Below are positions 34,649-40,081 of a DNA stretch of 42,750 nucleotides, piece by piece. The stretch comes from Isosphaeraceae bacterium (GTDB lineage Bacteria > Planctomycetota > Planctomycetia > Isosphaerales > Isosphaeraceae). The position numbers and the translations under genes were made by a program. The notes under the pieces are model-generated. The model saw only the letters and a program-made list of their open reading frames with translations, was not told the origin of the DNA and ran no database searches. Every line of letters begins with the position of its first letter. Within the stretch, counting starts at the first letter, position 1. The stretch spans positions 1-42,750 of the forward strand of contig JANXSX010000005.1 of assembly GCA_025356475.1 (NCBI GenBank), read 5' to 3'.

Positions 34649-35293
34649 TTAGATTGATGTTCCAGCGGCTGAGGTTGTCGCCTCGAAGTCGCAGGAATGA
34701 TGGCCATCGAGCCGGCACTGGCTCAGCCGAAGGCTTTGTCCGAGCACCTTCTCGAACATCTTCTTTTCCATGGCACAGACAGCCCGATCGACTTCGGCAA
34801 GTTCGTGATATGGGCAGGTATGTTGCTTGAGGATGGGGAGTAGGCCCCCTTCGCCCCCCGAGGTCACCTCGGTCTCGATCCCCCGGTCGTGCAGGATTGT
34901 GCCGAGTTCGGCCATGCGTCCCTGCCAGGCTTCGGATGTCAATTGGCCTCGGTAGAGTTCGGCCATTCGTTCGGTAATCCGCCCGAACAGCATCCGCCGC
35001 AGCTTCCGATCCTCGACGGACCGCATCAACTCGTCCCAGAGCACGACGGCAAGATCCGCGTAATTCTGGCCAAGCTGCTTGCGAGCAAGCGTGCTGGCCT
35101 CGTACAGGTGCCGGGGCCGACCACGCCCCATGCTCTCGGTCCGCCGATCGACCAGCCCTGACTCGACTAGCCGACCAAGGCGATTGCGCACAGCGGTGGC
35201 TGTCACATTCAGACGCTCAGCCAGTTCGACGATTGTTAACGGGCCGTGGCGACGAATCAGGTCCAGGAGCGGGCGATCCGACGATTCCGTCAT
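34649..35293 (-). CDS. sufR: SufR-type iron-sulfur regulator
   Basis: This 214-aa transcription factor has an N-terminal winged helix (about 8-60: GPLTIVELAERLNVTATAVRNRLGRLVESGLV). Its C-terminal domain has four Cys (160, 173, 193, 201) in HTCPYHEL, AVCAMEKK, LSQCRLDG and HHSCDFE. SufR proteins bind an iron-sulfur cluster there and repress the suf genes when the cluster is present. The position directly upstream of sufC on the same strand is as in other SUF operons. A 12-bp perfect palindrome about 55 bases upstream is a candidate binding site. Confidence 0.88.
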   Translation of the reverse strand: MTESSDRPLLDLIRRHGPLTIVELAERLNVTATAVRNRLGRLVESGLVDRRTESMGRGRPRHLYEASTLARKQLGQNYADLAVVLWDELMRSVEDRKLRRMLFGRITERMAELYRGQLTSEAWQGRMAELGTILHDRGIETEVTSGGEGGLLPILKQHTCPYHELAEVDRAVCAMEKKMFEKVLGQSLRLSQCRLDGHHSCDFEATTSAAGTSI

Positions 35294-35349
35294 GGGTTCA
35301 CACTCCTCATGTTAATTGATTATAGAAACCCCGCTCCCCAGCGTCTATC

Positions 35350-35361
35350 ATCAAGCTTGAT
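35350..35361. promoter_or_regulatory. Candidate SufR operator
   Basis: ATCAAGCTTGAT is a perfect 12-bp palindrome in the space between the divergent sufR and ABC-transporter genes. Its location suits control of sufR and possibly the transporter. It does not match the cyanobacterial CAAC-N6-GTTG site, so this is tentative. Confidence 0.3.
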
Positions 35362-35482
35362 TTTTCTCCAAAATGGGTGTGTTAAATCCCAACGGCTAAT
35401 ACCGAAGGGGTGTCGGCGAACTCTCCTCCAACCCAGGGCCGATCATGGCCTGGGACCTTACCCAGCGGAGTACCTTCTTTCC

Positions 35483-36403
35483 ATGGACGCGATTGCGATC
35501 CGGGGCGTAACCAAAGCCTTCGGCACCACCGTAGCGGTCAACAACCTCAGTTTGGTCGTTCCACGTGGCTCGCTCTACGGCTTTATTGGCCCCAACGGCT
35601 CGGGCAAAACGACAACGCTGCGAATGATCATGAACATTCTCTTGCCCGATAGCGGCGAGGTGGAAGTTCTCGGCCGCAAAGGGACGACAGCCGCCCACGA
35701 TGATGTTAGCTACCTCCCCGAGGAACGGGGGCTCTACAAGAAGATGACCGTTCGACGGCTGGTCCGCTACTACGCGATGCTCAAGGGAATGCGCCAGCCC
35801 GATCTCGATAGTGCGATTGACCACTGGCTGGACCGGATGGGTTTGAAGGATTGCATTGATAAGAGGATCGAAGCCCTTTCAAAAGGCATGGCCCAGAAGA
35901 TCCAATTCGTATCTGCGGTCGTCTCCAAGCCCGAATTGTTGATTCTCGACGAACCCTTCTCCGGCCTTGATCCTGTCAATGCCGAAGTCCTCAAGGACGC
36001 GATCCTCGACCTCCGCAAGGCGGGAACGACAATCGTGTTCTCAACTCATGATATGAGTGTCGCGGAGAAGCTCTGCGACCGCATTTTCATGATCTTCAAG
36101 GGAAATAAGGTCCTTGATGGTAGCCTTGACGAAATTCAGACCGACTTCGGCGCTGATACGATCCGAGTCCGCACCGAGGATGGCGCGGAAGCTCTCAAGA
36201 ACTTGCCCGGAATCGAGTCGATCAACGACCTCGGGAATATGCAAGAATTGCGGCTCACCGAGATGACCAACCCGCAAGATTTGCTCCACGCATTGGTCGA
36301 GCGGACCAGTGTTTACCACTTTGAGATCACCCGGCCAAGTCTCCACGACATCTTCGTGCGGATCGCCACCCCTGAGATGCAAGGAGTTGCCATCCATGAA
36401 TAA
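35483..36403 (+). CDS. ABC transporter ATP-binding protein (NatA-like)
   Basis: This 306-aa ATPase subunit belongs to an ABC-2 type exporter. Walker A is GPNGSGKTTT (36-45), followed by LPEERGLYKKMTVRRLVRYYA, the signature region LSKGMAQKIQF, Walker B LLILDEPFSGLD, and a switch His in VFSTHDMSVAEKL. The C-terminal ~80 residues resemble the DUF4162 domain of NatA-like proteins. The upstream in-frame extension to 35246 has no homology and would overlap the sufR control region, so the ATG at 35483 is preferred. Its stop overlaps the start of the permease gene by eight bases, so the two work together. NatA proteins export sodium; the substrate here is not known. Confidence 0.92.
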   Translation: MDAIAIRGVTKAFGTTVAVNNLSLVVPRGSLYGFIGPNGSGKTTTLRMIMNILLPDSGEVEVLGRKGTTAAHDDVSYLPEERGLYKKMTVRRLVRYYAMLKGMRQPDLDSAIDHWLDRMGLKDCIDKRIEALSKGMAQKIQFVSAVVSKPELLILDEPFSGLDPVNAEVLKDAILDLRKAGTTIVFSTHDMSVAEKLCDRIFMIFKGNKVLDGSLDEIQTDFGADTIRVRTEDGAEALKNLPGIESINDLGNMQELRLTEMTNPQDLLHALVERTSVYHFEITRPSLHDIFVRIATPEMQGVAIHE

Positions 36404-37685
36404 AATCTGGGTTGTGGCCACCACTGAGTTCGGATCCGCAGTTCGGACCAAAGCATTTCTGATCGGCATCCTGATGTTCCCGATCATCATGGGAGTCTCA
36501 ATCGGCGTTCAGGTCTTCGCGGCAAGCCAAGTCAATACGAAGCCCAAGTCGTTTGCGATTATCGATGAGACCGGCGAGCTATCGACCGGGATTATCGCTG
36601 CGGGCGAGGCCCGCAACAAAATGGTGACTGGTGATCCCAAGACCAAGCTCGCCCTCTACCAGCCCGAGTCGATCACGCTTGCAGGAAAGTCGCTGGAGGA
36701 GATCAGACTCGAACTTTCCGACCGAGTTCGCAAAGAGGATTTGTTCGCCTTCATCGAATTGCCCAAGGGGGTTCTCGATGGTTCGCAGTCGATGCAATAC
36801 CACTCGAACAACCCCAGTGCAAACGACTTGCCCGACTGGCTCAATGGCACGGTTGGCGAGCTAGTGCGGGCTCGTCGCCTCAAAGAGTCGGGCATTGATC
36901 CCGTCGTGGTCGCGAAGCTGAACGTGCCGGTTCGGTCTGAGAACCTTGGCCTGCAAAGTAAGTCAGAAGATGGCACCGTAAAGCAGGCTGAGAAGGTCGA
37001 TCCGATCCGCACATTCGTCGTACCGGGTGCGCTTTGCTTCTTGATCTTCATGGTGTTGATGTCGAGCGCCCCGCAACTGATGAACAGCGTTCTCGAGGAG
37101 AAGATGAGCCGGATCAGTGAAGTTCTGCTCGGCTCGATCACACCGTTCCAGCTCATGCTCGGCAAGCTTCTGGGGAGCGCTGCAGTCTCGTTGGTGATGG
37201 CTTCACTCTATGTGGGTGGGGCTTATGGCACAGCGACCTATTATGGTTATGCGGACGTGCTAACACCTGGCATGTTTGCCGCCTTCCTGCTGTTCTTGAT
37301 CCTGGGCGTGCTCATGTTCGGATCGCTCTATGTGGCCGTGGGTTCGGCATGCAGTGAGCTCAAAGATGCCCAGAGCTTGATGTCGCCTGTCTTGTTGCTG
37401 TCCATGTTCCCGATGTTCGTCTGGTCGGCGGTCCTGCGGGATCCGGGGGGCACGTTCTCGCGGACGATCTCGCTGTTCCCGCCGGCAACCCCGTATCTCA
37501 TGCTAATGCGAATGGCCCTTAAGCCTGCCCCCGCACCATGGGAAATCGGCCTTTCAATCGTACTGACAACCCTCACGGCACTCGGGTGTGTCTGGGCTGC
37601 CGGCAAGATCTTCCGCACGGGCCTCTTGATGCAAGGTAAGGCCCCAAGCTTCGCCGAACTCGCCCGCTGGGTGGTGGCGAAGTAG
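36396..37685 (+). CDS. ABC-2 type permease (NatB-like)
   Basis: This 429-aa membrane subunit partners the upstream ATPase. One membrane segment lies at the N-terminus (about 22-42: FLIGILMFPIIMGVSIGVQV). A large extracytoplasmic domain follows (about 43-200), then about five segments in the C-terminal half, beginning ALCFLIFMVLMS. The cytoplasmic loop SVLEEKMSRISEVLLGSITPFQLMLGKLLG is the NatB/ABC-2 hallmark. An AAGGAG nine bases before the ATG and the overlap with the ATPase gene fix the start. It is probably an exporter of an ion or small hydrophobic molecule. Confidence 0.9.
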   Translation: MNKIWVVATTEFGSAVRTKAFLIGILMFPIIMGVSIGVQVFAASQVNTKPKSFAIIDETGELSTGIIAAGEARNKMVTGDPKTKLALYQPESITLAGKSLEEIRLELSDRVRKEDLFAFIELPKGVLDGSQSMQYHSNNPSANDLPDWLNGTVGELVRARRLKESGIDPVVVAKLNVPVRSENLGLQSKSEDGTVKQAEKVDPIRTFVVPGALCFLIFMVLMSSAPQLMNSVLEEKMSRISEVLLGSITPFQLMLGKLLGSAAVSLVMASLYVGGAYGTATYYGYADVLTPGMFAAFLLFLILGVLMFGSLYVAVGSACSELKDAQSLMSPVLLLSMFPMFVWSAVLRDPGGTFSRTISLFPPATPYLMLMRMALKPAPAPWEIGLSIVLTTLTALGCVWAAGKIFRTGLLMQGKAPSFAELARWVVAK

Positions 37686-37690
37686 GTCCA

Positions 37691-37755
37691 GACCGATCGT
37701 GAAACGGTCTCAAACCCCTCGTGCTGTCCGTGACTTAGCGGATCGCCGAGGGGTT
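37691..37755 (+). terminator. Stem-loop region after the ABC permease gene
   Basis: Two stems are visible: AGACCG with CGGTCT (37691-37711), six bases past the stop, and AACCCCTCG with CGAGGGGTT (37714-37755). The second overlaps the end of a decayed minus-strand gene. There is no long T-run. It is a plausible bidirectional terminator between converging units. Confidence 0.4.
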
Positions 37756-37992
37756 CGGCTTTGACGCGACTTGTGTCACGTAACGACGCCGGACGACGCC
37801 GTTGGGGTACGAGACTGAGTCGATCAATTGAAGGGGTTGGGGGGATCGGGCTTCAGCGAAGAGTGGTAGACCCTGACCCAACATGCTCGGCATGGTCGAC
37901 ATCTGGTAAGAGGTCAGCCAGTGGACCTCGCCATCGCGTGTTGCGATGTATCCATCGACGCTGGCGGCGACATCATAGATCAGGTCTGGCAT
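37735..37992 (-). pseudogene. RibD/dihydrofolate-reductase-like gene with internal deletion
   Basis: The 85-aa frame joins the start of a RibD-C/DHFR-like reductase (LIYDVAASVDGYIATRDGEVHWL) to the end of the same family (LGQGLPLFAEARSPQPLQLIDSVSYPNGVVRRRY). Family members are about 180 residues, and the middle ~100, with most of the NADPH-binding fold, is missing. The join is at about residues 26-36 (roughly 37885-37915). The frame itself stays open, so the loss was an in-frame deletion or the frame recovered. An active enzyme is very unlikely. Confidence 0.7.
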
Positions 37993-38056: not shown

Positions 38057-38200
38057 TCAAAGGCCTTTGCCACCGAGATGCAAATTCTTCTTCTTCTTGT
38101 TTCGTCCCTTGCGCTTGGGGCGACGGCCCTTGGCGATGGGAGAGCTATCGGCCTTGCTGCGCCAGACGGACGACTTACGGTGTTTGGTCTTAGTCTTCAT
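38057..38200 (-). CDS. Very basic 47-residue small protein (tentative)
   Basis: The ATG at 38200 opens a 47-aa frame with about 40 percent Lys/Arg (KTKTKHRKSS, GRRPKRKGRNKKKK), a charge pattern suited to nucleic acid binding, like small ribosome-associated proteins. I recognise no family. There is no good ribosome binding site, and a longer frame runs upstream to 38332. It may be a real small gene or chance. Confidence 0.35.
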   Translation of the reverse strand: MKTKTKHRKSSVWRSKADSSPIAKGRRPKRKGRNKKKKNLHLGGKGL

Positions 38201-38574: not shown

Positions 38575-39336
38575 ATGCGTGGTCACTGTCGATTCGGTTG
38601 GGCGGGCATGGGGCTTTTCATGTTCCTGGTGGCGACCCCTGCGGTTGAGGCTGGGCATGGATGAAATCACGTGTCGCCGATGGCACTCTGTCGGGAATGC
38701 ACGGTTGCAACCTGTGAGCCATCCTATGTGCTTCAAACTCAGACGACCTACCAGACCGTGACCGACTGGATCTGCGAGATGGTCCCGACAACCGTGATGC
38801 AGACCCAGTACAAAACCGAGTACAAGTCGGAACAATATACGGTGAATCGCCCGGTGACCGAGATCGTACAGGTCCCGCGAACCGTGACCGTGATGACTCC
38901 CGTAACCACGACAACCCAACAACAACGCGTGACCACGGTCATGAAGCCGGTCACCAAGACCACTTACCAGCAGCGAACCTCAACCGTGATGAAGCCCGTA
39001 ACCACCACCAAGATGGTCTGAACCCAGAAGACCGAGATGGCCTCCGAGTGTCGGACCAAGTTTGTGACCGAGACGGCGACGCGCCAGGTCCCAGTCTGCA
39101 CACCGGTCCAGGTTCCGGTGACCATCATGAAGTGCGAGCAGAAGCAAGTCACTGACACGATCACTCGCCAGGTTCCGGTTTGTGTGCCGGTCCAGGAAGC
39201 GGTCACCGTCATGACCTCGCAGAAGCGTCCGGTCACTCGTCAGGTTTCGTTCACCCAGACCGTGATGGTGCCGACGGTTTCCGCCCCCGCGACGACCACC
39301 TCTCCTTCCGCCCAGAGCCCCTCTCCGCAGAAGTAA
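38575..39336 (+). pseudogene. Exported Thr/Val/Gln-rich repeat protein, frame interrupted by two TGA codons
   Basis: One continuous frame of 254 codons runs from ATG 38575 to TAA 39336 but contains TGA at 38662-38664 and 39019-39021. Codons 1-26 encode a clear signal peptide (GMGLFMFLVATPAVEA), preceded by an AGGAA motif. The rest is a low-complexity array of short motifs such as TVMKPVT, RQVPVC and PVQVPVT with several Cys, a style known in planctomycete exported 'YTV'-type proteins. Both TGAs could be former TGG (Trp) codons. TGA is a normal stop in neighbouring genes, so decay by two nonsense changes is the simplest reading. Sequence error or readthrough are alternatives. Confidence 0.7.
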
Positions 39337-39340
39337 GCGA

Positions 39341-40081
39341 TCAAAACCGGGTGACCCAGGTCGGGTCACCGAACCGCTCTGCCGTCAGACGCTCCACCAG
39401 GTCGAATGGGATTGGGGTGTCGATGGCGGAGGAATCGGTTGGTAACCATTCGAGGCGGATCGCAGCTTTAAGCGCATCGCGATCGAGATCCAATCGTGTC
39501 ACGAAATCGTCGTGGAGTCGCAACTCGCGATACTCGGGGCGTCGGGCCGGCTCGGCCAGGTAGCGGGGGATCAAACCTAGGTCGAACGTGTTGAGAATCG
39601 ACACATGGACCAAAAAGTGGTGCCGCAACCTCCTCTGGGCACTGCCGGCCACTTTTCGACCTCCGATCGTGAGGTCACCGGAGCCCCTTACCACGACCGG
39701 CGAGCCGAGTGAGCGAATCGCCTCGGCCAACCGCCCCAGAACATAGGCCTGGGCTGTGACCACAGCATCCAGCCCCGGCGCGGCATCGCCAGCCAGAATC
39801 ACCGTCACATTTAAGGCTCCAGGTCCGATGACGACGGTCCCGCCGCCACTGGAACGACGGGCTAATACCATCCCGTCGGCATCGACGGTGGCTCGGTGAA
39901 CATCCTCGCCCACCTTCCCTGATGCGCCCAGCACGACTCCGTAGTGGTCAGGTTCCCAGAACCTCAAGGCAGTCGGGCCTCGACCCTCTTCGACCTCGAT
40001 CAGCAGGGCTTCATCGAGAGCCAGGTCCTCTGCGATCGTCGGCATCGTGTGATCAAGCAAGCTCGCAGTGGTGGGGTTCAC
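39341..40081 (-). CDS. Lipoate-protein ligase A-like protein
   Basis: This 246-aa protein of the biotin/lipoate ligase fold attaches lipoyl or octanoyl groups to carrier proteins. Conserved parts are the N-terminal SLLDHTMPTIAEDLALDEALL, the RRSSGGGTVVIGPGALN loop (75-81 RRSSGGG) and the ligand-contact Lys143 in IGGRKVAGSAQRR. The small C-terminal accessory domain of E. coli LplA is missing, as in LipM-type proteins. I use the GTG at 40081, since family conservation begins at LLD. The ATG at 40045 would cut this off, and the frame start at 40225 would abut the divergent gene. Its stop lies a few bases from the preceding plus-strand gene. Confidence 0.82.
   Translation of the reverse strand: MNPTTASLLDHTMPTIAEDLALDEALLIEVEEGRGPTALRFWEPDHYGVVLGASGKVGEDVHRATVDADGMVLARRSSGGGTVVIGPGALNVTVILAGDAAPGLDAVVTAQAYVLGRLAEAIRSLGSPVVVRGSGDLTIGGRKVAGSAQRRLRHHFLVHVSILNTFDLGLIPRYLAEPARRPEYRELRLHDDFVTRLDLDRDALKAAIRLEWLPTDSSAIDTPIPFDLVERLTAERFGDPTWVTRF

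Follow-up and report, generated by a model that had tools for sequence, protein, structure and literature searches.

Does a single reading frame broken twice by the same stop codon belong to a recoded gene, to a gene that is occasionally read through or to one that was recently inactivated? Positions 38575–39336 of a 42,750-nt stretch of an Isosphaeraceae bacterium genome (the whole stretch that was analysed, referred to here as the window) raise this question. The initial annotation had described one frame that ends in TAA and is interrupted only by two TGA codons, at 38662 and at 39019, leaving readthrough, recoding and recent inactivation as explanations. Our translation agrees with that layout: from its ATG start, the frame runs for 254 codons to the TAA at 39334–39336 and reads M...GHG-stop-NHV...KMV-stop-TQKTEM...SPSPQK-stop (Table 1).

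Table 1. Features of the interrupted frame, in window coordinates.
Feature	Coordinates	Strand	Evidence or remark
Interrupted YTV-repeat (PF07639) cell-wall-type gene, signal peptide and repeats	38575..39336	+	Two TGA, then TAA
Segment 1: signal peptide with the start of the mature protein, 29 codons	38575..38661	+	Translation
First in-frame TGA, residue 30	38662..38664	+	Hypervariable linker directly after signal peptide
Segment 2: N-terminus with Cys, a single VPTT unit, YTV-type repeats	38665..39018	+	Pfam match, codon usage
Second in-frame TGA, residue 149	39019..39021	+	First half of 6-base block TGAACC
Segment 3: conserved VPV(C)VPxQVPVTVMT repeats of the C-terminus, plus the tail SPSAQSPSPQK	39022..39333	+	Profile, alignment, codon usage

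The frame is truly coding and not a product of chance. Segment 2 matches the Pfam YTV family with 24.2 bits against a cut-off of 21 (E = 3.4e-5), and GC3 is 0.75 in segment 2 and 0.81 in segment 3, compared with 0.46–0.56 in the shifted frames. Codon preference reaches 0.141 in segment 2 and 0.188 in segment 3, on a scale on which random synonymous codons score −0.13 and neighbouring genes 0.04–0.23. Inspected by eye, the N-terminus shows a hydrophobic stretch followed by VEA-GHG, with signal-peptide cleavage predicted after the AEA/VEA region; the first TGA parts the signal peptide from the repeats.

To our knowledge, the YTV family is known from planctomycete cell walls only. YTV proteins are cysteine-rich and were identified by proteomics in planctomycete cell-wall preparations (PMC8567305), YTV domain proteins belong to the cell wall of Planctomycetales (PMC8567305, PMC10632474), and one YTV protein of Planctopirus limnophila has been reported among its essential genes (PMC10632474). 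The host genome, a 5.92-Mb draft in 232 contigs with an estimated contamination of 1.62%, contains three YTV genes, namely C63 (475 aa), C131 (764 aa) and the gene at 38575–39336; a genome search counted two YTV matches over the cut-off. The subfamily of the interrupted gene, defined by a profile (A2) built on its C-terminal repeat, is present in 31 of the 45 genomes of the same taxonomic family and in 20 of the 26 good-quality ones. At the threshold used it is missing from the other six good-quality genomes, so its loss is tolerated, and within a 248-genome class sample it is confined to the same taxonomic family. Many relatives thus have the subfamily, although it is missing time and again, and the gene at 38575–39336 is the sole copy of it found in the host genome. 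It is also the only interrupted member among the matches listed from the 45 family genomes and the 248-genome class sample; none of the other listed matches carried an in-frame stop. A protein-pattern search of genome contigs for close relatives of the protein gave no match, and the same search with the neighbouring transporter returned distant Pirellula contigs only.

Comparison with the closest homologues, L036 and L052, points to an origin for the second TGA. The block TGAACC stands where these homologues have 78 and 77 residues, respectively. On its 5′ side, ATG GTC matches the end of their YTV unit, and on its 3′ side the DNA is nearly identical to that of L036, L052 and L053 (CAG AAG ACC GAG ATG); the window reads GTC-TGAACC-CAGAAGACCGAGATGG, compared with GTC-CCCGAG-CAGAAGACCGAGATGG in L036 and L052. 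Given that six bases replace 77–78 codons, a deletion or rearrangement junction is the probable source of the second TGA. The earlier statement that no insertion or deletion is needed is correct for the frame, but not when the gene is set against its homologues, whose central stretch is missing at this point. We also considered a rotation of CCT GAA in which CC was shifted downstream; this is conceivable, but the CCC GAG of the relatives would require two transitions in addition. Another genus has very short members of the subfamily that are intact (L111–L113, about 190–215 aa after the start Met) and also lack the central stretch, so a gene without this centre need not on that account be dead or decaying, and the central deletion could be older than both stops.

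The initial annotation had suggested that the two positions might be Trp in homologues. At the second TGA, homologues carry Ala, Pro, Asn, Ser, Gln and others in the orthologue register and Glu, Gln, Thr, Val and others in the repeat register, and never Cys, Trp or Arg in either; a conserved Trp at this site is thereby not supported. The first TGA sits in a hypervariable linker of changing length, which separates the signal peptide from the first pair of conserved Cys residues. By hand alignment only, a Cys of L036 can be placed opposite this TGA (AGHKKCGH against AGHG-TGA-NH), and automatic alignment does not fix it there. Several YTV subfamilies share a CHxC motif right behind the signal peptide, and L111–L113 carry it as ACHxCG at the mature N-terminus; the CREC of the window gene may itself be the counterpart of this common motif.

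Among the three explanations left by the initial annotation, inactivation fits best, and we regard 38575–39336 as most likely a recently inactivated YTV gene. The first TGA would then most likely go back to one nonsense mutation in the linker behind the signal peptide, and the second to a deletion or rearrangement inside the gene, by which a YTV unit and a C-terminal unit came to adjoin at the 6-base junction. Ribosomes starting at the ATG at 38575 would terminate at 38662, with the signal peptide and some three further residues made, and no wall protein would be made from the gene. From these lesions we infer a loss of function and the order of events, and their recency from the state of the remaining frame: codon preference is intact and 5 of 22 conserved C-terminal columns are violated, compared with 0–6 in relatives, so any loss of function would be recent. 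The two other YTV genes remaining in the genome also count in favour of inactivation. Against it count the lack of any frameshift, a codon preference as good as in live genes, the intact short members L111–L113 and the fact that both stops are TGA.

This last point had been put forward initially as unusual for random decay. The likeliest nonsense stop in the YTV gene is TAG (about 0.6), and because of this two independent point nonsense mutations would both give TGA with a probability of only about 0.03. The coincidence is indeed mildly unusual, but it is not compelling, and a junction origin of the second TGA would weaken the argument from two identical stops further. Nor does the coincidence reflect a change of code: TGA terminates 10 of 18 neighbouring genes and the genome has a gene for RF2 (prfB), so the global code is unchanged and the exclusion of TGA reassignment in the initial annotation stands.

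An intact gene in which one or both TGAs stem from an assembly consensus error or a strain mixture is an unlikely alternative to recent inactivation. The draft state and estimated contamination of the genome would allow for it, as would the intact codon usage and conserved C-terminus; however, it takes two errors that arose independently in the same gene and caused no frameshift, whereas selA, selB, prfB and the ABC transporter of the same genome are uninterrupted, and TGAACC differs from the homologous sequence at several bases and not at one miscalled base. Somewhat less probable still is low-level UGA readthrough by a near-cognate tRNA, or the production of separate re-initiated pieces. The codon usage downstream of the stops is intact and ORFs start inside the gene at GTG 38671 and ATG 39037, but the second and third pieces would be made without a signal peptide, and two serial stops multiply the loss incurred by readthrough. 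The leaky context for this codon is UGA-C, whereas both stops here are followed by A.

A complete selenocysteine system in the lineage means that in-frame TGAs there merit a check for recoding before a pseudogene is called. The initial annotation had proposed a search for selA, selB and selC, and all three are present: tRNA-Sec with anticodon UCA on C53, and selA and selB adjoining each other on C90. In addition, the formate dehydrogenase alpha subunit gene on C146 (L093, G000:C146:7631-8374) contains a TGA in frame at NQARI-U-HSSTV; downstream of this codon lies a canonical SECIS element, GUGCCC-GGUCU-GGGCAC, with the GGUCU loop at +22. With this machinery and a genuine Sec-UGA, the genome is a selenocysteine decoder. 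An earlier study had reported selenocysteine machinery in Isosphaera pallida and in Gemmata (PMC4807772), and the complete system with its canonical formate dehydrogenase SECIS is a useful side result for the lineage.

The YTV gene fails the corresponding check. Hairpins were scored by published bacterial SECIS constraints (PMC13188914), with the formate dehydrogenase of the same genome as the yardstick. Its hairpin reaches −10.1 kcal/mol, a level attained by about 2% of ordinary window codons, whereas the best upper hairpins at the YTV TGAs reach −4.3 kcal/mol (first) and −4.1 kcal/mol (second), levels attained by roughly 15–28% of ordinary window codons. A longer stem at the first TGA (−14.1, z −0.6) has the loop CACU, which lacks the required G. 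The 40-nt fold lies at the 7th percentile after the first TGA and at the 63rd after the second, over wider stretches the folding does not surpass that of shuffled sequence (z −0.01 to −0.72) and no Rfam family was found after the TGAs. The RNA structure for which the initial annotation had suggested looking is not supported by these results, and SECIS-like structure at both sites stays at background level. Selenocysteine decoding of both TGAs by SelA, SelB and tRNA-Sec through weak, non-canonical SECIS elements, which would give a wall protein with two such residues, is very improbable: the decoder, the Cys content of the protein, the hand-aligned Cys of L036 and the small hairpin with G first in the loop and allowed spacing at both TGAs speak for it, but the weakness of those hairpins, the absence of Cys from the second position and the lack of any TGA in homologues among the matches listed speak against it.

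The surroundings of the YTV gene offer several further observations. On the minus strand, an 85-aa ORF (37735–37992) matches the start of RibD_C, a dihydrofolate-reductase-like domain, over its first 30 residues (22.0 bits, just under the cut-off) and continues with GQGLPLFAEARSPQPLQLIDSVSYPNGVV, resembling the end of such proteins; it looks like an internally deleted remnant beside the broken YTV gene. A 47-aa Lys/Arg-rich ORF on the same strand (38057–38200, MKTKTKHRKSSVWRSK...) is kept beside the same ABC-2 permease in another genome (L068, 74% over 23 aa). In the window, this permease forms a pair with a DrrA-type ABC ATPase (35246–37685), and the orthologous pair lies about 10 kb from a YTV gene of the same subfamily in several relatives (g14 genomes). 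Between the YTV gene and a convergent lipoate-ligase-like gene, a strong inverted repeat (39347–39370, GGTGACCCGACCTGGGTCACC) is terminator-like on the minus strand.

Compared with known systems, the gene at 38575–39336 shares with the YTV proteins of Planctomycetales a signal peptide, tandem Thr/Val/Pro-rich repeats, Cys residues and a planctomycete host; it differs from them in its two in-frame TGAs and its missing central stretch, and its 253 residues compare with 186–913 in relatives. With the selenocysteine-containing formate dehydrogenase of the same genome it shares an in-frame TGA and a host equipped with selA, selB and tRNA-Sec, but, unlike bacterial selenoprotein genes, it has no adequate SECIS, no Cys or Sec column at the second TGA and no TGA-bearing homologue. 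It resembles pseudogenes formed by a nonsense change and an internal deletion in having premature stops, one of them at a deletion-like junction, and in being the only genome copy of a gene lost in several relatives. Unlike typical pseudogenes, it carries just two lesions and its codon usage is intact; if it is a pseudogene, it would be a very young one, and would add a further case to the losses of this YTV wall-protein subfamily, which is absent from several relatives as well.
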